Shown here piece after piece: positions 13,354 through 64,000 of a DNA stretch of 64,000 bases; positions within the stretch are counted from its first letter, which is position 1; every line of letters begins with the position of its first letter. Under the pieces are notes generated by a model, which was not told where the DNA came from, did not search any database, and worked only from the letters and a program-made list of their open reading frames with translations. Location of the stretch: contig JACRPQ010000004.1 in NCBI GenBank assembly GCA_016223135.1, forward strand, positions 806,001 to 870,000, written 5' to 3'. A program made the translations under genes and the position numbers. The stretch is from Chloroflexota bacterium. Lineage in GTDB: Bacteria; Chloroflexota; Anaerolineae; Anaerolineales; Villigracilaceae.

Positions 13354-15366
13354 ATGACAGACGACGCCTTCAACACGCTCGGCGCAAATCTTCAGACCCG
13401 CGCCATTAACACGCTTCGATTTCTCTCGGCAGATGCCGTCCAGCAAGCCAACTCGGGACATCCGGGACTTCCGATGGGCGCTGCCGCCATGGCATTCACC
13501 CTTTGGACGCGTCACCTACGCCACAACCCGCGCAACCCCAAATGGCACGGACGCGACCGCTTCATCCTTTCGGGCGGGCATGGTTCGATGCTCCTGTATT
13601 CTTTGCTCCATCTGACGGGGTACGACGTCAGTCTCGATGACATCAAGAACTTCCGTCAGTGGGGGAGCATTACGCCCGGTCACCCGGAATACGGACTGAC
13701 GCCCGGTGTGGAAATGACCACCGGTCCGCTTGGACAGGGGTTTGCCGCCGGCGTGGGCATGGCGATTGCCCAGGCGCATCTTGCCGCGCTCTTCAATAAG
13801 CCCGGGCATGAACTCATCCAATCCTACATCTACGCCATTGTCACCGACGGCGACTTGATGGAGGGCGTTGCCTCCGAAGCCGCCTCGCTGGCGGGGCATC
13901 TCCAACTGGGGCGCCTCATCTACCTCTACGACGACAACCACATCTCGATTGACGGCTCCACCGACCTTGCCTTCACCGAGGACCGCGCCAAACGCTTCGA
14001 GGCATACGGCTGGCATGTCCAAAAAGTGGATGACGGCAACGACGTGGAAGCGATTGACAAAGCCATTCAAGCCGCCAAAGCCGACCCGCGTCCGTCCATC
14101 ATCATGTGCCGCACCATCATCGGCTATGGTGCGCCGAAACGTCAGGGAACGGCTAAAGCGCACGGCGAGCCTCTCGGCGAGGAAGAACTCAACGCTGCCA
14201 AACAAAACCTGGGCTGGGTCACCGAACCGCGCTTTTACATCCCCGATGACGTTCTGGCGTTCTTCCGTAAAGCCGTGGAGCGCGGGCGCGAACTCGAAGC
14301 CGATTGGAAGATGAGACTGGAAGCGTACAGTCGCCTCTACCCGCAGCTCGGCGCTGAATTGAACCGCCGCATCGCCGGCACGTTCCCCGCCGGCTGGGAC
14401 GCGGAACTCCCAACCTTCCCCGCCGACCCCAAAGGCATGGCGACGCGCGCCGCCTCCGGCAAACTCATCAACGCGCTGGCGCCGGCTTTGCCCGAACTGA
14501 TCGGCGGCTCGGCGGACTTGGCTCCTTCCAACAACACCAAAATTGACGGCAGCCCTGCCTTCCAGAAAGATTCGCGCGCAGGACGCAACTTTCATTTTGG
14601 CGTGCGCGAACACGCCATGGGCGCCGCCTTGAACGGCATGAACCTGTTCGGCGGCGTGATTGCCTATGGCGGCACGTTCCTCGTCTTTTCCGATTACATG
14701 AAGCCTGCCATCCGCATTGCGGCGCTCTCGCACATCCCGACCATTTTCATCTTCACGCACGACTCGGTGGGGCTTGGCGAGGACGGTCCCACCCATCAGC
14801 CGATTGAGCATCTGGTTGCCTTGCGCGCAACGCCGAATCTGGTCGTCATCCGTCCTGCCGATGCAAACGAGGTACGTGAAGCATGGAAGGTTGCCATCTC
14901 CCGCCGGAACGGACCAACGGCTCTGGTTCTCACCCGTCAGGCTGTGCCAACGCTCGAAAACGGAAATGCAAGCCAACTTGCGCGTGGTGCCTATGTGTTG
15001 AAAGACTTCGGCGAGCCTGAAATCATCCTCATGGCATCGGGTTCGGAGGTCAGTCTCGTTCTGGATGCGGCGCAGAAACTGCACGAGGAAGGCAGGGGCG
15101 TGCGCGTGGTCTCCTTCCCCAGTTGGGAATTGTTCGAGATGCAGGACGAGGCATACAAGGAGTCCGTGCTGCCGAAGCGGATTCAGGCGCGGCTCGCCGT
15201 CGAAGCAGGAGCCAGCCTCGGCTGGGAACGATACGCCCAGTCCGTCCTCGGCATTGACCATTACGGCGCATCCGCTCCGTATAAAGTCATCTTCGAGAAG
15301 TTCGGGTTCACGGTTGAAAATGTCGTTGCGCGAGCGAAGTCTTTGTTGGACGCAGAAAAACGCTGA
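13354..15366 (+). CDS. tkt: Transketolase
   Basis: 670 aa. Thiamine-diphosphate enzyme moving two-carbon units in the pentose phosphate pathway. Motifs: [12 protein letters not shown], the TPP motif [14 protein letters not shown]...NHISIDG, and the pyrimidine domain [15 protein letters not shown], then [13 protein letters not shown]. The ATG at 13354 is chosen because AAGGT precedes it and conserved sequence begins soon after. First gene of tkt-rpiB-tal/pgi. The last codons (DAEKR, stop) lie in the left ladder repeat that precedes the GxxExxY gene. Confidence 0.97.
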
Positions 15367-15377
15367 TGACGCTGATG
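15348..15377. repeat. Left ladder repeat flanking the GxxExxY gene
   Basis: Short words ACGCAGAA, ACGCTGATG, ACGCTGATG at roughly 10-bp steps; includes the tkt stop codon. The reverse-complement words occur at 15835-15861, after the gene. Confidence 0.65.
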
Positions 15378-15395
15378 GTCTGATTTTGATGAACG

Positions 15396-15830
15396 ATGGA
15401 TAAGAAGCCTTCGTACAGCGCTCCACTTTACAAACACTCCGATTTAACCGAGAAAATCATCGGTGCGTTTTATGCTGTTTACTCTGCGCTGGGTTATGGA
15501 TTTCTTGAAAAGGTGTATGTCAAAGCTCTAATGATCGAATTGGCAAATCGTGGCATGGTTGTTAGGGACGAATTTCCAATCCAAGTATATTATGCTGGGC
15601 AATTGATTGAAGAATACTTTGCCGACCTGATTGTGAACGACCTTGTGATTCTCGAAATCAAAGCGACAAAGGCGTTAACGACGGAGCACGAAGCCCAGTT
15701 GCTAAATTACTTGAAGGCAACCCCCTACGAGGTTGGTTTAGTGCTTAATTTTGGACCGAAACCCGAGACCAAACGTCGTTCGTTCGATAACGCTCGGAAG
15801 GAGTGGTACATTGCTCAAAACAAATCTTGA
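15396..15830 (+). CDS. GxxExxY family protein
   Basis: 144 aa. Recognised from the family signature near residues 33-39 (GYGFLEKVY: G, E and Y in place), and the nuclease-like pattern ADLIVNDLVILEIKA, which resembles the D-(D/E)xK core. The biochemical role of the family is not established. It is more AT-rich than the pentose phosphate genes around it, sits between tkt and rpiB in the same orientation, and is bracketed by inverted short-word repeats (15348-15377 and 15835-15861), suggesting it was inserted as a unit. No Shine-Dalgarno is obvious. Confidence 0.85.
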   Translation: MDKKPSYSAPLYKHSDLTEKIIGAFYAVYSALGYGFLEKVYVKALMIELANRGMVVRDEFPIQVYYAGQLIEEYFADLIVNDLVILEIKATKALTTEHEAQLLNYLKATPYEVGLVLNFGPKPETKRRSFDNARKEWYIAQNKS

Positions 15831-15834
15831 ATTC

Positions 15835-15861
15835 TGCGTTTTCAGCGTTCATCAGCGTCCA
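15835..15861. repeat. Right ladder repeat flanking the GxxExxY gene
   Basis: Words TTCTGCG, TTTCAGCG, TTCATCAGCG run opposite in strand to the left ladder at 15348-15377. It ends just before the rpiB Shine-Dalgarno AGAGGAG. Confidence 0.65.
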
Positions 15862-15874
15862 AAAGAGGAGAATC

Positions 15875-16345
15875 ATGAAAATCGCCGTCGGTTTTGACCA
15901 TGCGGGTTTCCCGCTCAAGCAGGTTGTTTTGGATGCCGTCCGCGAGGCGGGGCATGAACCCATTGACTTGGGCACATATTCCGCCGAAAGCGTGGACTTC
16001 CCCGATTTTTCCGAAAAAGTCGGGCGCGCCATCCAAAGCGGAGAAGCCGAACGCGGCATCCTGTGCTGCGGTTCGGGCATTGGCGCGTGCATCGCCGCCA
16101 ACAAGATGAAAGGCGTATATGCCTGTGTTTGCCACGATACCTATTCCGCCGCCCAGGGCGTGATGCACGACGATATGAACGTGCTTTGTCTCGGCGGGCG
16201 CGTGATCGGACCCGAACTCGCCAGAGTGCTCATCCATGCCTTTTTGAACGCCGAGTATCAGGGGGACAAAGCGGGCGGAGAAAGACTGGCGAGGCGGGTG
16301 GGGAAGATACATAAACTTGAAGATGTTGGAAGGTTAGAAGGTTAG
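15875..16345 (+). CDS. rpiB: Ribose-5-phosphate isomerase B
   Basis: 156 aa. Interconverts ribose 5-phosphate and ribulose 5-phosphate. RpiB/LacAB marks: FDHAGF at 7-12 and the active-site stretch GILCCGSGIGACIAANK with Cys65 as the probable base; CLGGRVIGPELA near the C-terminus. The ATG at 15875 is preceded by AGAGGAG. The last residues (EDVGRLEG) are encoded by the start of the ladder repeat that follows, so the natural C-terminus has been altered or extended by it. Confidence 0.95.
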   Translation: MKIAVGFDHAGFPLKQVVLDAVREAGHEPIDLGTYSAESVDFPDFSEKVGRAIQSGEAERGILCCGSGIGACIAANKMKGVYACVCHDTYSAAQGVMHDDMNVLCLGGRVIGPELARVLIHAFLNAEYQGDKAGGERLARRVGKIHKLEDVGRLEG

Positions 16346-16480
16346 AATGTTGGCGAGTTGGCAAGTTGGAAGGTTAGAAGGTTAGAATGTTAGCGAGTTG
16401 GCAAGTTGGAAAGTTGATGAGTTAATAGTTGCTTGAGCGATGGAAACCTGAAAACTTGTAAACTTGTAAACTTGTAAACC
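16325..16480. repeat. Left ladder repeat flanking the four-helix-bundle gene
   Basis: A 40-bp unit (16325-16364) is repeated in tandem at 16365-16404 with one mismatch. Inside it are short words GTTGGAAGGTTAGAAGGTT (16325-16343, 16365-16383). Further on AACTTGTA is repeated three times near 16453-16479. The reverse complement of the 19-nt word lies at 16932-16950, beyond the gene. Confidence 0.85.
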
Positions 16481-16498
16481 CATCAGACAGGAGAAAAA

Positions 16499-16909
16499 AT
16501 GCCCACCATCACGCGCTTTGAAGAAATCGAAGCATGGCAAACCGCCAGGGAGTTGACCAGATTAGTATACTCCCTCACAGAAACAGGGAAATTTTCGCGT
16601 GATTTCGGGCTGAAGGACCAAATTCAACGGGCATCGGTTTCCATCATGAGCAATATTTCGGAAGGTTTTGAAAGTCAAACTCAGGCTCAGTTTATTCGCT
16701 ATTTGGGAATTGCCAAAGCCTCCGCAGGCGAGGTCCGCTCACAGTTATATGTCTGCAGGGACTTGGAATATATCACCCAGGAGCAATTCGATACAGCCTT
16801 TGCAATCGCTGAAAAAGCCTCCCGCCAGATTGCCCGTTTCATCTCTTATCTTGAGTCTCACCCTCAATCACACAAAATCCGTGAAGATGCCCCTGAATAC
16901 GAGGTCTAA
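16499..16909 (+). CDS. Four-helix-bundle protein (23S rRNA intervening-sequence protein family)
   Basis: 136 aa, almost wholly helical. Family marks: EEIEAWQTARELTRLVY, RDFGLKDQIQRASVSIMSNI, EGFESQTQAQFIRYLGIAKAS and a GEVRSQLYV helix. Relatives are encoded in intervening sequences of bacterial 23S rRNA and, as Avd, in diversity-generating retroelements, but neither an rRNA nor a reverse transcriptase is here. AGGAG precedes the ATG. The gene interrupts rpiB and tal-pgi and is enclosed by inverted ladder repeats, so it looks like an inserted unit. Function unknown. Confidence 0.88.
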   Translation: MPTITRFEEIEAWQTARELTRLVYSLTETGKFSRDFGLKDQIQRASVSIMSNISEGFESQTQAQFIRYLGIAKASAGEVRSQLYVCRDLEYITQEQFDTAFAIAEKASRQIARFISYLESHPQSHKIREDAPEYEV

Positions 16910-16911
16910 CT

Positions 16912-17000
16912 CTCCAACCTTCCAACCCGCCAACCTTCTAACCTTCCAACCTGTCAACCTGCCAACCTGCCAACTTGCCAACCTGAAAACCTGAAAACGA
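16912..17000. repeat. Right ladder repeat flanking the four-helix-bundle gene
   Basis: C-rich words of about 10 bp (CCAACCTT, CCAACCTG, CCAACTTG, then CCTGAAAA twice), in the opposite orientation to the left ladder. AACCTTCTAACCTTCCAAC at 16932-16950 is the exact reverse complement of the left 19-nt word. It runs up to the tal-pgi start codon. Confidence 0.85.
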
Positions 17001-21066: not shown

Positions 21067-21459
21067 TTATACCTTGAGAACCTGAATGCCTTCTTGTTCG
21101 GCAATCTCAATCATGTTTTGGTCAAGTGAAATTAACGGTAAATTATGTTCGATAGCGCAGCGAAGGATGTAAGCATCATAGGCATAGATATTGTGCTTTC
21201 CAGCAAGCTTGACCGCTTCTTTCAAATCTATCTCTACGATTTCCAGTGAAATTTCCTGATAAACTTCGATGGCTTCAATGGCTTGTTCAAGGGTAATGCG
21301 AGAACGTTTCAGCATGGCAGAAAAAGCATTTCCAACCTCCCAGTCAATTGAAGGTGGTACAACGATGGTTGCGTCTTTGGTCAATTCAATCAATCTTGCT
21401 TTTTCTGCTTCGCCAGCAACTACTGCGATAATAGTTGAGGTGTCAACGACGATTCTCAT
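21067..21459 (-). CDS. PIN-domain toxin-like ribonuclease (VapC family)
   Basis: 130 aa from the ATG at 21459 (five residues shorter than the first possible start). PIN acidic residues: D in IVVDTSTI, E in DWEVGNAF, and the pair around YAYDAYILRCA and SLDQNM. VapC toxins cleave tRNA or other RNA. More AT-rich than neighbouring genes, as usual for mobile toxin-antitoxin pairs. Forms a module with the antitoxin immediately downstream. Confidence 0.85.
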   Translation of the reverse strand: MRIVVDTSTIIAVVAGEAEKARLIELTKDATIVVPPSIDWEVGNAFSAMLKRSRITLEQAIEAIEVYQEISLEIVEIDLKEAVKLAGKHNIYAYDAYILRCAIEHNLPLISLDQNMIEIAEQEGIQVLKV

Positions 21460-21529
21460 GGGGGCGTAATCCATTTTTGATTCAATTGTATCACGCTGAC
21501 CAAGACATTATGCGCCCAACGAAACTGTC

Positions 21530-25258: not shown

Positions 25259-25267
25259 CCGCCCATC

Positions 25268-25516
25268 CAAAGGCAGTGATGGGAACGAGTAGGTCTGCGG
25301 AGTTGTCAGAGAGCCTGCGGTCGGTGCGAGCAGGTCAACGAAACAGATCGAAAATCCTCCCGTAGCCGCGAACTGAAATTCGAGTAGGCGAGCCGTAGTT
25401 GTCCCACGTTACAGGGACAGGGCGATGCTGGTCGTCCATGAGCGCCTGACTTTGAGTCAGGAATCAGAGTGGTACCGCGGGAGTTCTCTCGTCTCTGTGT
25501 GAGATGAGAGTTTTTG
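25268..25516 (+). promoter_or_regulatory. T-box riboswitch leader of ileS
   Basis: The leader opens with GATGGGAACGAGTAG, typical of the 5' base of stem I. The T-box itself is AGAGTGGTACCGCGG at 25466-25480. It is followed by a terminator: CTCTCGTCTC (25486-25495) / GAGATGAGAG (25501-25510), then TTTTT. An ATC at 25347-25349, in AAACAGATCGAAAA, is the likely specifier codon and matches the isoleucine enzyme downstream. Uncharged tRNA-Ile would pair with the specifier and the T-box bulge and prevent termination. Specifier choice is inferred. Confidence 0.9.
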
Positions 25517-25550
25517 TTTAACGCCGCTGCCCGTCCCGCCGAAAGACTCT

Positions 25551-25600
25551 GAGACTATGAGACTATAAGACTATTTGACTAGGAGACTAGGAGACTGACT
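25551..25600. repeat. Ladder repeat before ileS, supplying its Shine-Dalgarno
   Basis: Repeated GACTATGA, GACTATAA, GACTATTT, GACTAGGA, GACTAGGA words at 9-10-bp spacing, ending at the ileS ATG. The last unit creates AGGAG (25589-25593), 7 bases before the start. The word GACTATAAGACTAT recurs at the typA start (54508-54521). Confidence 0.7.
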
Positions 25601-40389: not shown

Positions 40390-41281
40390 AACTGTTCGAA
40401 GCATGAAAAGAATCTGGAAACCCCTGCTGGGCGGATTTTTTGTACTGCTTCTGTGCATTGGCGCATATCGCCTCTATGACCGCGGACGCCCCGCCCCTCT
40501 GCCAATGAAACAGAAGCTGTACGAGGGCATTGTCTATCGCCGCATTGTGCGCTTTACTCCGCACGCAATGATTGCTCACGTCATCATCATTGACCGCAAA
40601 ACTGCGAACGTTGCCTTCCTCGTCACGCCTCCCGACCAGGCAGGCGACCTGCCTCTGAATGCCCGCACCACCTCCCAATTTTTGGACGAATTCAACGTGC
40701 AGATTGCCATCAACGGCGACGGCTTCGATCCATGGTGGTCACGCGGACCGGCAGACTATTACCCCCGCCTGGGCGATCCCGTCGCCCCGCATGGATTTAC
40801 CGCTTCCAATGGGAACGTGTACTCTACGGGTGTTCTGGAGCGAGTTGGTACGGCGCCGACCTTGTATTTCACCCGTCAGGGTTACCCTTCGTTCAACAGA
40901 CGCCCCAACAAAGTCTGGAATGCCATCTCCGGCGACCGTATGCTGATCACACAGGGAGAACCGGTCAGCGGGCTGGATGATTCCGCCCTCGAGCCGCGCA
41001 CCGCCATCGGCATCAACCAGAACGGGCGCTATCTTTATCTGGTCGTCGTGGACGGACGTCAGCCGTTTTACAGTGCGGGCGCAACGTTTCGGGAATTGGC
41101 AGAACTGCTGGTAGAGCAGGGCGCTTACATTGCCATGAGCCTCGATGGCGGCGGTTCCTCCACCATGGTCATCGAGGGGGAGAACGGGGAACCGCTCATT
41201 TTGAATTCACCCATTGACCAGTACATTCCCGGCCGGGAAAGACCCGTTGGGAATCATTTTGGGGTGTATGTAAATCCCTAA
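40385..41281 (+). CDS. Phosphodiester glycosidase family protein (NAGPA/DUF2233)
   Basis: 298 aa. N-terminal membrane anchor (about residues 15-30), extracytoplasmic domain with the family core PRTAIGINQNGRYLYLVVVDG and SLDGGGSSTMV. Relatives uncover phosphodiester-linked sugars or act on cell-wall glycans. Three ATGs are possible (40370, 40385, 40403), none with a clear SD. The first lies inside the MITE and the second in the right copy of its target duplication, so the element inserted just upstream of, and perhaps at, the start of this gene. Confidence 0.85.
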   Translation: MVTVRSMKRIWKPLLGGFFVLLLCIGAYRLYDRGRPAPLPMKQKLYEGIVYRRIVRFTPHAMIAHVIIIDRKTANVAFLVTPPDQAGDLPLNARTTSQFLDEFNVQIAINGDGFDPWWSRGPADYYPRLGDPVAPHGFTASNGNVYSTGVLERVGTAPTLYFTRQGYPSFNRRPNKVWNAISGDRMLITQGEPVSGLDDSALEPRTAIGINQNGRYLYLVVVDGRQPFYSAGATFRELAELLVEQGAYIAMSLDGGGSSTMVIEGENGEPLILNSPIDQYIPGRERPVGNHFGVYVNP

Positions 41282-42099
41282 AACGCAATCTCCCCGATCT
41301 GCTCGAAGTTGACGTCGAACCATTCCTCCGCTTCCATCTCCGCCTCAGCCTGCTCTGCCTCCCCAGCCTGCACTCCCCGGTCACAGTACGACCTGTAGGG
41401 GCAGTAAAGGCATTTCGTGCGGTCATCCGTGAGCGGGTAGGATGAGGCGGCTGCAATCTCGTCCGCCAGTTTGACCAGCGAGTCCCAGTCCCGTTTGTAT
41501 TGCGCGGATGTGTACGTGAATCGAGCGGGGTCGTTGGGATACTCTGCAAACCAATAGACCATCTCGACCTGCTCCGGCGCAAACGGCTGACCTTTGTTTA
41601 GATGCGCCCCTGCATGGACAAGCAGTGCGCGGTACACACGGGTTTGCATTCGCGCCGCCAGCCACTCGCTGCGCGGACGTTTGCGGTAGGTCTTCCAATC
41701 GTAGATGATGGCTTTGCCGTTCTCGATGGCGAGCAGGTCATATTTGGCGACGAGGCGATAGTTCCCCAGCGGCGCGGAGAGCGAGGCTTCGGGGTGAAGG
41801 GCGAGACTTCCGAGGTCTCGAAGACCTTGGAAGTCTTTGTCAGCCAGAAAATTTTCCCACCACCTCTGCAAATTGACCGTGTTCGCAAGTCTTGCAATTT
41901 TCTCAACGGGAACACCGATTAAATATTGATGCGCCAGCCGATGAAAATACTCTCCCTCCTGCAAGTGCTTTTCGTTTTCCAATGCAGGCTCCATCTCGAC
42001 AGCAGGATACGACAAGCGCTCCAGATACCGCAGTTGAAAGCGGCGCGGGCAGTCCACGTAATCTTGCAGGGAGGATTGGGAGAGGGTGGTGAGGGGCAT
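41278..42099 (-). CDS. PD-(D/E)XK nuclease, Cas4/RecB-like, with probable Fe-S cluster
   Basis: 273 aa. Nuclease core: H in GEYFHRLAHQ, AKYDLLAIENGKAIIYDWKTYRK (D...DxK) and QTRVYRA. Four Cys set as in AddB/Cas4: C17 in VDCPRRF and three in KCLYCPYRSYC. The glutamate-rich C-terminus (AEQAEAEMEAEEW) is unusual. No helicase or cas genes adjoin, so it is a stand-alone nuclease, likely in DNA repair. Its stop overlaps the convergent glycosidase gene end by 4 bases. Confidence 0.88.
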   Translation of the reverse strand: MPLTTLSQSSLQDYVDCPRRFQLRYLERLSYPAVEMEPALENEKHLQEGEYFHRLAHQYLIGVPVEKIARLANTVNLQRWWENFLADKDFQGLRDLGSLALHPEASLSAPLGNYRLVAKYDLLAIENGKAIIYDWKTYRKRPRSEWLAARMQTRVYRALLVHAGAHLNKGQPFAPEQVEMVYWFAEYPNDPARFTYTSAQYKRDWDSLVKLADEIAAASSYPLTDDRTKCLYCPYRSYCDRGVQAGEAEQAEAEMEAEEWFDVNFEQIGEIAF

Positions 42100-42116
42100 G
42101 GGATGAGTGGTGATGA

Positions 42117-42222
42117 CCAGTAATCAGTTATCAGTGAACAGTGGTTGGTGTTGTTGCAATTATAGCCTCAACTGACAACTGCTTACTGATCACTGATCAC
42201 TGCTTACTGATCACTGATTACT
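42117..42222. repeat. Ladder repeat with inverted halves between pyrG and the nuclease gene
   Basis: Right half: 21-bp unit (42181-42201) repeated at 42202-42222 with one mismatch, built from ACTGATC words. Left half (42117-42143): CAGTAATCAG, TTATCAGTGAACAGTG in the opposite sense. About 35 bases of unique DNA lie between. Confidence 0.8.
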
Positions 42223-42224
42223 TC

Positions 42225-44340
<2,116 letters not shown>

Positions 44341-45859: not shown

Positions 45860-45895
45860 AAAGTAGAAAGCTAGCCGACCTGACAGTTTCAAATG

Positions 45896-46062
45896 GGACG
45901 CTGAAAAACGCAGAAAAAACTCTCTACCGTACATTTCTCTCGTGAAAAACCAAAGGTCTTTTTGAAAATTCTCAAATTCACGAAGGGAAAGCAGACCTTT
46001 AGAGTTTCTGTGTACGGTAAAGAAGAAAAAATAACTTAAATCAGCGTTCATCTGCGTCCCAA
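45896..46062. repeat. Ladder repeat pair enclosing a MITE
   Basis: Left GGGACGCTGAAAAACGCAGA (45896-45915), right TCAGCGTTCATCTGCGTCCC (46040-46059), reverse-complement words of the kind that flank the GxxExxY gene. A second, outer pair uses CTAGCCGACCTG / GTCGGGTGGCTAG (45872-46085). The MITE at 45920-46023 is inserted in the A-rich centre. Confidence 0.75.
45912..46031. mobile_element. 104-bp MITE-like element, copy 2, with 8-bp target duplication
   Basis: Direct repeats AGAAAAAA (45912-45919 and 46024-46031) flank 45920-46023. The sequence is the reverse complement of copy 1 at 40275-40380 over almost its whole length, with a short deletion in one CCCTAAAGG arm. Confidence 0.85.
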
Positions 46063-46099
46063 AACAAAAGTGTCGGGTGGCTAGGTAGAAAGTAAGGAA

Positions 46100-54340: not shown

Positions 54341-54349
54341 GTGTGTATT

Positions 54350-54520
54350 AGCCTGATAGGCTAAAGTCTGATAGTCTGATAGTCTGGAGTCTCATAGTCT
54401 TATGGCTAACCGACTGCGGACTACTGACTGTTTGACTATCAGACTATAAGACTAAAGACTGAAGACTACAAGACTGAAGACCATAAACCTGAAAACTAAA
54501 AGACTGAAGACTATAAGACT
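54350..54520. repeat. Ladder repeat with inverted halves before typA
   Basis: Left half AGTCTGATAGTCTGATAGTC (54365-54384), right half GACTATCAGACTATAAGACT (54434-54453) and further GACTGAAG and GACTATAA words up to the typA ATG. Shares GACTATAAGACTAT with the ladder before ileS. Confidence 0.8.
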
Positions 54521-56377
54521 ATGATTATCGAACGAACCGACCTCCGAAACATTGCCATCATTGCCCATGTAGATCACGGCAAGACCACCCTCGTGGACGG
54601 GCTTCTGCGTCAATCGCACACCTTCCGCGAGAATCAGCAAGTGGCTGAGCGCGTGATGGATTCCAACGACCTCGAACGCGAACGCGGCATTACCATCCTT
54701 GCCAAGAACACCGCCATCACGTTGAACGACCCTGTCACCGGCAAGCCCGTCAAAATCAACATCGTGGATACGCCCGGTCACGCCGACTTTGGCGGCGAAG
54801 TGGAACGCGTCATGAACATGGTGGATGGCGTGCTCCTGCTCGTGGATGCCGCCGAAGGTCCCATGCCGCAGACCCGCTTTGTCCTCAAAAAGGCGCTCGA
54901 GATGGGACACAAAGCCATCGTGGTCATCAACAAGGTGGACCGCAAGGACGCCGAACCCGCCCGCGTCCTCAACGAGACCTTCGACCTGTTCATCGAACTC
55001 GGCGCGAGCGAAGAACAGGCGGACTTCCCCGTCATCTACGCCCAGGCAACCGCCGGGCGGGCGGGTCTTACGCCGGACCTCGGACCTGATCTTGCCGTCC
55101 TTTTCGACGCCATCCTCAAACATATCCCTGCTCCCAAAGTGGACCCCGATGCTCCCCTGCAAATGCTCGTCACCACGCTCGGCTACGACGACTACCGCGG
55201 CGTCACCGCTTTGGGGCGTATCTTTGCCGGGCGCATCAAAGCCGGTCAGCGTCTCGCGCGCCTCACCACCGACGGACGTAACTTGCCCGAATCTGCCAAA
55301 TACCTCTACACCTTCCAGGGTTTGAACAAAATCGAAATCGAGGAAGCCAGCGCCGGCGACATCATCTCGCTGGCGGGGCTGGAGGAAATCGCCATCGGCG
55401 AGACTCTTGCCGACCCCAACAATCCCGTTGCTTTGCCCACCATTCGAGTGGAGGAACCCACCGTCCGCATGACGTTTGGCGTGAACACCTCTCCCTTTGC
55501 CGGCAAAGAGGGCAAATACAGCACTTCCCGCAAACTGCGCGAGCGTCTGTTCGATGAACTGCGCACCAACGTCGCTTTGCGCGTGGAAGAAACCGATACG
55601 GCGGAAAACTTCCTCGTTTCGGGGCGCGGCGAACTGCACCTCGGCATTCTCATCGAGACGATGCGGCGCGAGGGATACGAGTTTCAGGTCTCGCGCCCGG
55701 AGGTCATCTTCCACAAGGCGGATGACGGCGCGCTGCTCGAACCTTACGAGGAAGTTCACATCGAAACCAGCAATGAAACCGTCGGCGTGGTGGTGGAAAT
55801 GCTTGGGAGTAGGAGAGGCAAGTTGATGGACATGCAGGATACGGGTCAAGGCACGACGCGCATGGTCTTCATTGTGCCGACGCGCGGCTTGCTGGGCTTC
55901 CGTTATCAGTTCCTCACGTCCACGCGCGGCGCGGGCGTCATGCACACCATCTTCTACGGTTATGACGAAATGGCGGGACCAATGAACACGCGTCAGACCG
56001 GTTCGCTGGTGGCGTGGGAGGCTGGCACGACTACGGCTTATGCGTTGAAATCGGCGGAGGAGCGCGGCGTGCTGTTTTATGGTCCGGGCGTGGATGTGTA
56101 TGAGGGGATGGTTGTCGGTGAGAATGCGCGCCCCGGCGACCTTGTGGTCAACGTGTGCAAGAAGAAACATCTGACGAACGTGCGCGCCTCCCGCGGCGAT
56201 ATGGAAATCCGCCTCACTCCGCCCCGACAGATGTCCCTGGACGAGGCGATCGAATACCTCGCCGACGACGAACTGCTGGAAGTCACCCCGCAAAGTTACC
56301 GCATCCGCAAGCGGATTCTCAATACCGAGGAGCGCGGCAAGCAGACGAAGAAGGTGAAAGAAGCGCTGGAAGCGTAA
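54521..56377 (+). CDS. typA: Ribosome-associated GTPase TypA/BipA
   Basis: 618 aa translational GTPase acting in ribosome assembly and stress response. G1 [19 protein letters not shown], switch region [15 protein letters not shown]3 [16 protein letters not shown]4 [11 protein letters not shown]-terminal TypA domain with [10 protein letters not shown] and the [20 protein letters not shown] stretch. No clear Shine-Dalgarno: the ladder repeat runs right into the ATG. Confidence 0.97.
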
Positions 56378-60423: not shown

Positions 60424-60532
60424 TTAAACAAAAACTGCCGGAGAGATTTCTCTTCGGCAGTTTGGCGATCCAGCCTTGGCGGGACCCATAACTTTGCGCC
60501 CCCACCTCACGATGGGTTAGCCCTTTCGCCCC
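60424..60532 (-). promoter_or_regulatory. GEMM-like (cyclic di-GMP-I type) riboswitch with terminator, upstream of the M28 gene
   Basis: On the minus strand: P1 arm GGCGA (60530-60526) pairs with TCGCC (60468-60464). Between them are GGGCTAACCCATC, a GTGA GNRA loop, GGTGGGGGCGCAAAG and GGGTCCC, in the order of GEMM-I RNAs (AAACC, GNRA loop, GGGACGCAAAG, GGGTC). Then AAACTGCCG (60463-60455) pairs with CGGCAGTTT (60440-60432), with inner AGAG/CTCT pairing and TTTTTGTTT, a terminator as expression platform. Class assignment is by pattern only. Confidence 0.7.
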
Positions 60533-62880: not shown

Positions 62881-62969
62881 ATGTCAAAGGTCGGAAGTCA
62901 AAGGTCGGAAGTCACAAGTCGGAAGTCAAAGGTCACAAGTCGGAAGTCGAATGACCTTGGACCTTCGAC
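62881..62969. repeat. Ladder repeat between hppD and fahA
   Basis: Repeated GGAAGTCAAAGGTC and GGAAGTCACAAGTC words (14-bp pace), ending with GACCTTGGACCTTCGACT in the opposite sense just before the hppD stop codon. Confidence 0.8.
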
Positions 62970-64000
62970 TCATAGATTGCCGCGCCGCGCCTGTTCCAGT
63001 TCGATGGATTCGAACAATGCTTTGAAATTGCCCTTGCCGAATCCTTTTGCGCCGTGGCGCTGAATGACTTCGATGAACATGGTCGGGCGGTCCTGGATGG
63101 GGCGGGTGAAGATTTGCAGGAGATAGCCCTCGTCGTCGCGGTCGGCGAGGATGCCGAGCTCCTGAATGGCTTTGTAGTCCTCGTCAATTTTGCCGATGCG
63201 GCCGGGGAGCATTTCGTAGTAGGTATCTGGCACGCGCAGGAATTCCACGCCGCGCTTGCGCAGTTCGCCGACGGTGTGGAGGATGTCGCCGGTGATGAGC
63301 GCGATGTGCTGGACGCCGGGCGTGAGGTAGTAATCGAGGTACTCTTCAATCTGGCTCTTGCGCTTGCCCTCGGCGGGTTCGTTGATGGGGAACTTGACGC
63401 GCCCGTTGCCGTTTTGCATCACCTTCGACATGAGCGCGGAGTATTCGGTGGAGATGTCCTTGTCGTCGAAGTGCAGCAATTGGCGGAAGCCCATCACCTG
63501 ATGATAGAAGTTGACCCAATGGTTCATCTTGCCCAGCTGCACGTTGCCCACCATGTGGTCAATGGCGGCAAGCCCGGTGGACTCGGCTTCGTAGTGGATG
63601 GGTTTATAGGTCGGCGCGAAGACGCCTTTGTAATCGGCGCGGTCCACGAAGACGTGGAGCGTTTCCCCGTAGGTGTAAATGGCAGACGTGCGGTAGATGC
63701 CGAAATCGTCCTTCTCTTCGCGCGGCGCCCAGGCAGATTTGCCGCCGCGGCTGGTGGTTTCCTTCCAGGCTTTTTCCACATCGTCCACGCCCAGGGCAAT
63801 CACCTTGACGCCGTCGCCGTGCACCATGTGATGCGCCGCCAGCGGGCTGGAGGGAGAATAGGGCGCAGAAACAACAAACCGCGCCTGCCCCGATTCGAGA
63901 ACGTACGAAGCAAAGTCGCGGTTGCCGGTTTCCAGTCCCGAGTAGGCGACGGGTTTGAAGCCGAACGCCTTCCACCAGTAGTACATGGCGTGTTTGGCGT
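62970..64000 (-). CDS. hppD: 4-hydroxyphenylpyruvate dioxygenase (N-terminus outside window)
   Basis: Frame stays open through 64000; the upstream codons read AKHAMYYWWKAFGF, which is the normal early part of HPPD, so the ATG at 63986 is internal. Iron ligands: H in AAIDHMVGNV, H in GVQHIALITG and E in PTMFIEVIQRHG. Converts 4-hydroxyphenylpyruvate to homogentisate. At least 343 residues are present; about 10-20 are missing. Upstream of fahA and hmgA in the same direction. Confidence 0.95.
   Translation of the reverse strand, partial: AKHAMYYWWKAFGFKPVAYSGLETGNRDFASYVLESGQARFVVSAPYSPSSPLAAHHMVHGDGVKVIALGVDDVEKAWKETTSRGGKSAWAPREEKDDFGIYRTSAIYTYGETLHVFVDRADYKGVFAPTYKPIHYEAESTGLAAIDHMVGNVQLGKMNHWVNFYHQVMGFRQLLHFDDKDISTEYSALMSKVMQNGNGRVKFPINEPAEGKRKSQIEEYLDYYLTPGVQHIALITGDILHTVGELRKRGVEFLRVPDTYYEMLPGRIGKIDEDYKAIQELGILADRDDEGYLLQIFTRPIQDRPTMFIEVIQRHGAKGFGKGNFKALFESIELEQARRGNL

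Follow-up and report, generated by a model that had tools for sequence, protein, structure and literature searches.

Within a 64,000-nucleotide stretch of Chloroflexota DNA (GenBank assembly GCA_016223135.1, contig JACRPQ010000004.1, positions 806,001 to 870,000; named here the window, to whose first letter coordinates refer), two unrelated small genes interrupt a sugar-metabolism operon made up of tkt, rpiB and tal-pgi, one encoding a GxxExxY protein of the PD-(D/E)XK nuclease superfamily and the other a 23S-IVP four-helix-bundle protein (IVP), and each of them is bordered by tracts of a repeated, degenerate short word, termed “ladders” in the current work. Such an arrangement suggests a kind of single-gene mobile unit that had not been described. 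The explanation favoured here, with a probability of roughly 0.6, is that one small gene and its short-word ladders, which are usually inverted with respect to each other, form a single-gene selfish cassette whose parts travel together.

The interruption of the tkt-rpiB-tal-pgi order by the two genes, claimed by the original prediction for this locus, was confirmed with Pfam and NCBIfam (Table 1). In these two databases neither gene matched a transposase (no Y1/HUH domain), the only families being PDDEXK_3/GxxExxY and 23S_rRNA_IVP/four-helix. Residues D77, E87 and K89 of GxxExxY, which we take to be the catalytic residues of the PD-(D/E)XK fold, are invariant in 57/57 aligned relatives (inverted-ladder score of at least 12, no stop). 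The IVP protein has no recognised catalytic motif; the structures matched to it are 2GSC and 2RLD, each of five chains, and a passage of PMC4990558 describes a Xanthomonas protein of the family as a homopentameric torus.

The IVP unit is laid out as a left palindrome (a sense ladder and a short antisense tract), followed by the gene and then by an antisense tract. The antisense tract at 16444-16479 thus makes the left side itself a small palindrome, and a similar layout is readable in relatives that have the gene between rpiB and tal. The outer arms (16331-16415 versus 16908-16992) are inverted over 85 nt with 79% identity, and the predicted 19-nt exact match, GTTGGAAGGTTAGAAGGTT, is located at 16325-16343 and repeated at 16365, its reverse complement being found at 16932-16950. 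Around GxxExxY the inverted arms (about 15346-15375 versus 15833-15862, 30 nt) are imperfect, as had also been foreseen. Each left ladder reaches into the 3’ end of the preceding gene, tkt or rpiB, and contains its stop codon. The inverted score is 40 for the IVP unit and 15 for the GxxExxY unit versus a 99% quantile of 13.0 for 600 random window triplets, the maximum of which is likewise 40, random places being free to overlap the IVP unit.

Table 1. Genes, ladders and related features of the window.
Feature	Position	Strand	Details
tkt	13354-15366		gene order confirmed with Pfam and NCBIfam
GxxExxY left ladder	15348..15378	+	GGACGCAGA-AAAACGCTGATG-ACGCTGATGG; includes the final codons of tkt with its stop
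GxxExxY gene	15396-15830	+	PF13366, E 8.6e-40; TIGR04256; PD-(D/E)XK nuclease superfamily
GxxExxY right ladder	15832..15860	+	inverted relative to left
rpiB	15875-16345		gene order confirmed with Pfam and NCBIfam
IVP left ladder	16325..16416	+	8-nt unit GTTGGAAG, about 11 copies; overlaps 3’ end of rpiB
Short antisense ladder	16444..16479	+	AAACTTGT; between left ladder and IVP gene
IVP gene, 23S-IVP four-helix-bundle	16499-16909	+	PF05635, E 2.7e-33; TIGR02436
IVP right ladder	16914..16993	+	CCAACCTG x 10, inverted
tal-pgi	17009-19780		gene order confirmed with Pfam and NCBIfam
Gene-less palindromic ladder	42114..42227		word TCAGTNN, IVP-type; between open reading frames 41278-42099 (-) and 42225-43832 (-)
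Transposable element with gene-less GxxExxY-type ladder palindrome inside	45871..46084		8-bp direct repeat GTAGAAAG at edges
Gene-less palindromic ladder	54349..54522		word AGTCTGAT

The source genome (G000) contains ten IVP and five GxxExxY genes. With 300-nt flanks, all ten IVP genes score at least 15, the random 99% quantile being 13.0; with tighter flanks, an inverted score of at least 13.5 is reached by 8/10 IVP and 4/5 GxxExxY genes versus 3/362 other open reading frames (ORFs), all 100 aa or longer, from the window and a 400-kb sample, these control ORFs being longest open frames and not curated genes. In the genus, 28 IVP loci were fetched, of which five were too short (three short GxxExxY loci were excluded as well); 12 of the other 23 reach 13.0 and 18 reach 11. 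A broader set of named IVP loci was formed by the best 80 of 557 from a GTDB genome scan performed with one IVP-clade alignment, a selection biased to that clade; four without full flanks were excluded, leaving 76. Judged by their titles, these loci are from Chloroflexota, cyanobacteria, Bacteroidota, Acidobacteriota, Desulfobacteraceae and others; many of the genomes are metagenome assemblies, and several named loci come from isolates according to title. Measured against 3200 same-locus random triplets, the inverted score reaches the 95% quantile at 60/76 loci and the 99% quantile (13.5) at 40/76. GxxExxY was found in 23 of the 38 genomes of named IVP loci that were searched. Among the 71 testable GxxExxY loci (83 listed, 12 dropped), the 99% quantile (12.0) is reached by 4/5 in the source genome, 22/25 in the genus, 15/18 in the phylum and 16/23 in other phyla. 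Gene and ladders are associated far above background across phyla.

Considered by side, a ladder exceeds the shuffled 99% quantile in the left flank of 61/76 named IVP loci and in the right flank of 43/76. One left ladder (L161) is an artefact of a run of N, leaving 60/75, and this locus was excluded from the word-protein correlation, the run counts and the both-side counts; of the 75, 36 have both ladders, seven the right one only and 24 the left one only. The last of these numbers bears on an explanation in which the ladders act in RNA, the two arms pairing into an extended stem whose loop contains the ORF, for insulation or RNase III excision, as in the intervening sequences (IVS) of 23S rRNA. 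The IVP stretch 16320-16998 is indeed predicted to form a stem (z of -9.5 relative to 20 shuffles), and IVP genes are known, from a passage of PMC4990558, in stem-bordered 23S IVS that are removed by RNase III. However, the left-only loci count against it, the IVP arms share words but not a single pairing register (several registers score alike), and pairing leaves clade-typical words unexplained. We judge this explanation improbable, the least probable of the three alternatives weighed in this work.

The word was said by the original prediction to differ between the two loci; it does, although it is not arbitrary, being in each case a degenerate motif typical of the protein family and clade. 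By reading, the words at the IVP genes of the source genome are GTTGGAAG, GTCGAAA, GACCATT, GGTAATT, CGCGATA, GAATGCA, GATTTAC, GAAAGAT, GCAAATG and GATTGCA (the ladder of L007, one of these genes, is weak on the right side), and those at its GxxExxY genes are of the types ACGCTGATG, CGCTAATCTA, CACGAAGG and CACGGAG. In the widespread IVP clade the word approximates T-N-R-G-Y-N-N, with a period of 7 in 57/61 left ladders. Three repeats of T.RGY.. are present in the sense orientation on the left at 57/76 named IVP loci and in the antisense orientation on the right at 39/76; the opposite orientations were found at 14/76 (left antisense) and 6/76 (right sense), the background being 56/6328 strand windows. 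The GxxExxY core word is C-R-C-N-R-A-K, with a mean count per 250 nt of 2.3-3.0 in the left sense and 2.3-3.6 in the right antisense orientation, versus a background of 0.64. Word orientation relative to the gene is mostly fixed.

Word similarity also tracks protein similarity. For 92 IVP loci (17/109 excluded for lack of a clear ladder, a run of N or a stop), the Mantel correlation between protein identity and word similarity is 0.59, and 0.46 for pairs below 70% identity, with 0/2000 permutations reaching either value. The IVP loci of the source genome and its genus (n=26) give an r of 0.21 (13/5000 permutations), and those within the source genome, where the genome background is equal for all, an r of 0.37 (n=9, 42/5000). 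For 57 GxxExxY loci (14/71 excluded for a score below 12 or a stop), r is 0.43, falling to 0.29 for pairs below 70% identity (0/2000 each) and to 0.14 below 50% (1/2000). Kinship of loci inflates all such correlations, and the within-genome sample is small.

Evidence of movement was obtained from site comparisons, for which the tkt-rpiB-tal region was compared in 20 relatives of the source genome. GxxExxY is located between tkt and rpiB in 0/20 of them. Three relatives have a gene-less CACGAAGG palindrome at this site, and a gene-less palindrome of G001 starts at the tkt position where the GxxExxY unit of the window starts too. The window unit aligns from one ladder to the other with units of three relatives, G013, G016 and G014 (loci L097, L110 and L116), which have unrelated flanks; since L097 and L116 share a downstream gene, at least three different sites, the window's included, are represented, and the similarity to copies elsewhere stops at the outer ladder edges. 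A unit in G004 (L111) aligns with it up to the contig end, its left flank being the only one available. Among the matches listed, a unit with another word is likewise found at different sites (L112 versus L101), and two IVP copies in G013 (L078 and L092) share a word amid unrelated flanks on two contigs. At the site of L015, G016 holds a different GxxExxY gene with another word, and where G003 has GxxExxY between two palindromes (L118), G000 has a single palindrome (L238). The sites of L094 and L077 are occupied in a relative and unoccupied in G000, the difference being approximately the size of a cassette; that of L121 is also unoccupied in G000, the relative carrying roughly 1.1 kb of extra DNA, more than the length of the cassette. 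The flanks at these three sites are too diverged for exact junctions.

The IVP gene between rpiB and tal behaves otherwise. It is present there in 6/20 relatives, that is, together with the window, in 7/21 genomes of three genera, with 77 to 93% identity, near that of tal, and with a left ladder of GTTGG type in each, the copy number of which varies. Persisting in place with its ladder, this copy is thus old, vertically inherited and many times lost. In the closest relative by tal (G008, 92%), 54 nt without a ladder separate the aligned end of rpiB from tal; G001 has two ladder units at this site and no IVP gene, and one of the six relatives' copies (L050, in G014) has an internal stop. In one pair (G000-G006), the ratio of non-synonymous to synonymous substitution rates (dN/dS) is 0.081 for IVP versus 0.080 for rpiB, synonymous sites being saturated in the other three IVP comparisons.

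Such conservation could be taken to indicate domesticated regulators, that is, host translation regulators that use the ladders as operators scattered over 5’ leaders and that are mobile incidentally. The left ladder ends at a median of 47 nt before the IVP domain, and MacGregor (2015), in passages of PMC4679880, proposed translational control by TAACTGA repeats, while also raising a repeat-binding protein as a possible mobile element. Domestication is nevertheless rather unlikely, slightly less so than a purely RNA-based function, as it sits poorly with the patchy presence of IVP at rpiB-tal, with several paralogues having different words in one genome, and with the finding of one unit at different sites.

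Because gene-less palindromic ladders are found in the window (Table 1), ladders are not limited to the two genes. One of them is contained in a miniature inverted-repeat transposable element (MITE) whose ends read CTAGCC and which shows 8-bp target duplications, is represented by 16 copies across the window and the 400-kb sample (those outside the window being in L233, L234, L237, L238, L241, L243, L245-L248 and L251) and carries a GxxExxY-type ladder palindrome plus nested further inserts. By a fixed rule, 14/16 copies show both outer ends, CTAGCCACCC...GGTCGCTAG; eight of these 14 have an exact 8-bp direct repeat at their edges, and in six 6 or 7 of the 8 positions match. The copy in the window fails the end rule on one side, its exact 8-bp repeat having been found by reading. 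Near-identical copies of ACGCAGATGAACGCTGAT give 80 forward and 79 reverse matches in the source genome, often two per copy. Dispersal of these copies by cassettes was rejected as their source, the MITE having amplified them.

Further ladder-like tracts were observed in the same material. At 25267-25596 of the window, a T-box leader (Rfam) precedes a one-armed ladder, AGACTATG, and the next ORF reads like an isoleucyl-tRNA synthetase. A GTCGGAA/GTCAAAG ladder at 62883-62975 has a short inverted continuation and a word resembling that of the IVP locus L002. In the sample, a fused ABC-transporter-like ORF (L247:8551-12246, minus strand; cydDC-like by reading) has in-frame ladder stretches in apparent linkers, and L235 has a HAD-phosphatase-like ORF lying between two separate palindromes; no third cassette family was established from these other genes with ladders in the sample. 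The pattern YGACTNN x3, employed as a backward control, is abundant in the IVP-bearing genomes G092 (34+28) and G101 (21+19) and is possibly another ladder word.

These observations bear on the possibility that ladders are slippage-prone or palindromic repeats of the usual intergenic kind which spread alone, both gene families merely settling or surviving there. Gene-less palindromic ladders are common, a MITE with many copies in the source genome carries one of GxxExxY type, and ladders even occur in frame inside a transporter-like ORF. However, genes of other kinds are seldom found between ladders (the 3/362 given above), and each of two unrelated families has its own word class, in mostly fixed orientation and with words that track the protein. 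We consider this explanation unlikely, though it is the strongest of the three alternatives.

The presence of genes and ladders was also compared across 61 Chloroflexota genomes, the ladder counts including gene-linked ladders and those of G000 being inflated by MITE-borne ones. IVP is present in 20 genomes, GxxExxY in 15, a TCAGY ladder in 18 and a ACGCNGAT ladder in 13. IVP co-occurs with TCAGY ladders (p 4.7e-5), also outside the family of the source genome (8/14 versus 5/41, p 0.0017), and GxxExxY with the ACGCNGAT ladder (p 1.3e-4). Outside that family the crossed pairs give no significant association (p 0.58 for IVP with the GxxExxY-type ACGCNGAT ladder, p 0.36 for the other pair).

Several results weigh against the selfish-cassette explanation. 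Regarding the ladders as ends, 11/23 genus loci and 36/76 named IVP loci remain under the strict inverted threshold, a left ladder alone is frequent (see above), and direct-orientation ladder copies reach the 99% quantile at 21/76 named loci. The same score is reached by 22/396 other ORFs located more than 900 nt away in the named loci, so that the background is not nil. Regarding the word, TCAGY has 108 matches in the source genome, yet TCAGTNN is found at 0/10 of its IVP genes, and the co-occurrence of GxxExxY with the ACGCNGAT ladder is not significant outside the family of the source genome (3/9 versus 4/46, p 0.078). Regarding the number of heptads, a strict rule applied to 75 loci makes four the commonest run (20) versus five (18), owing to Flavobacterium and relatives, and ladders are longer in some further IVP clades. 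Regarding movement, vertical inheritance of the rpiB-tal IVP gene means no recent movement of that copy, and no target-site duplication of a cassette was seen in the site comparisons, in which flanks are diverged.

Nevertheless, both families exceed 3/362 and 22/396 by far, which bears out the expectation that ladders would be enriched around them relative to other genes, and mobility is well supported for GxxExxY and weaker for IVP. The observation behind the original prediction is confirmed, and its interpretation is partly supported. Single-gene mobile units agree with the GxxExxY unit at several sites, delimited by its ladder edges, and not with the old, vertical IVP copy at rpiB-tal. Ladders as the ends of such units, and the empty sites proposed as a check, agree with the unoccupied sites found, while gene-less palindromes, left-only ladders and the retention of IVP with its ladder in three genera speak against a simple form of either claim.

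How a selfish cassette of this sort might operate can be outlined as follows. The ladder may serve as a multivalent site to which the encoded protein binds, first of all to regulate the mRNA or promoter of its own gene. In the case of IVP, a pentameric ring could sit on approximately five heptads, one subunit per heptad. Under a lenient rule, five heptads is the commonest run before the widespread IVP clade (30/75, shuffled 1/75); by the strict rule, four heptads are seen in 14/27 Flavobacterium and relatives and five in 16/48 others. Movement of GxxExxY would most likely be homing-like, ladder DNA being nicked or cut and repair from a ladder-flanked copy installing the gene, and recombination between like-oriented ladder tracts may remove the gene and leave a palindrome. 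Since no catalytic motif is recognised in IVP, moving it would take an activity supplied by the host or a partner.

A wider proposal, which we put forward tentatively and at less than even odds, is that IVP and GxxExxY are the founding members of a class of ladder cassettes spread over all bacteria, in which the protein reads, and perhaps makes and spreads, its own word array, the IVP pentamer binding RNA or single-stranded DNA over about five heptads and controlling its own messenger and host genes behind gene-less ladders. If true, this would provide orphan heptamer repeats, of which TAACTGA is an example already in print, with the protein and the transfer route that they lack. Two widespread protein families of unknown function would be joined with two dispersed repeat classes of unknown origin, and each protein would gain a predicted ligand that is testable in vitro. 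A link between IVP or GxxExxY genes and ladders was not found among the papers listed in searches of the open-licence PMC literature, and the portions of PMC4990558, PMC4679880, PMC4476775, PMC8934634, PMC12085832 and PMC4853749 that were covered hold none.

Elsewhere in the window, a PIN-domain gene at 21067-21474 (minus strand) is possibly part of a toxin-antitoxin pair, and a c-di-GMP-I riboswitch is located on the minus strand at 60453-60532.

Among known systems, RAYT genes and their repetitive extragenic palindromes (REP) encode a Y1 (HUH) tyrosine transposase and lie between short repeats in inverted orientation whose class matches the protein clade; many gene-less copies exist in the genome. 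The cassettes resemble them in having inverted repeats that flank the gene, a repeat class that fits the protein clade and dispersed gene-less copies, but they differ in having no Y1 transposase domain, in ends where a degenerate 7-10 nt word is repeated as a ladder in place of a single short palindrome, and in comprising two unrelated protein families. The IVS of 23S rRNA share with the second unit a PF05635 protein, a patchy distribution and, by prediction, the nature of a stem-forming selfish insert; the IVP unit of the window, however, lies between rpiB and tal and not in helices 9, 25 or 45 of 23S rRNA, the cassette ends are ladders, and the rpiB-tal gene is under clear purifying selection.

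Compared with MITEs and insertion sequences, cassettes also have inverted ends, several sites and gene-less derivatives, whereas no fixed terminal sequence is apparent (the words differ per unit), a transposase domain is absent, and no clear target duplication was seen, as far as the diverged flanks allow. An accessory protein of diversity-generating retroelements (Avd) was rejected as an identity for the source genome, RVT_1 (PF00078) having 0 matches in this 98% complete genome. The TRAP protein is a ring that binds (G/U)AG repeats; the model put forward for IVP likewise places a ring-shaped oligomer on a periodic RNA ladder with a matching number of units, though TRAP has another fold and another word.

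The TAACTGA repeats of Beggiatoaceae, cyanobacteria and Bacteroidetes are, in the passages of PMC4679880 concerned, often placed directly upstream of start codons and patchy across phyla, and TAACTGA is the reverse complement of TCAGTTA, an IVP-type word form. According to these passages, the repeats are forward relative to the downstream start, which is the opposite of the sense word left of IVP genes, and the candidate binders named there are the S1, Csp and CsrA families, with no connection to IVP or GxxExxY. The heptamers TDNGATT and NNTGAGT in P6b of the Nostoc trnL intron, as presented in part of PMC4476775, are likewise degenerate 7-nt words in palindromic stems with repeated replacement of the word class, but are situated within an intron stem and without a gene. 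With homing endonuclease genes, finally, GxxExxY shares the retention of nuclease active-site residues (D77, E87 and K89).

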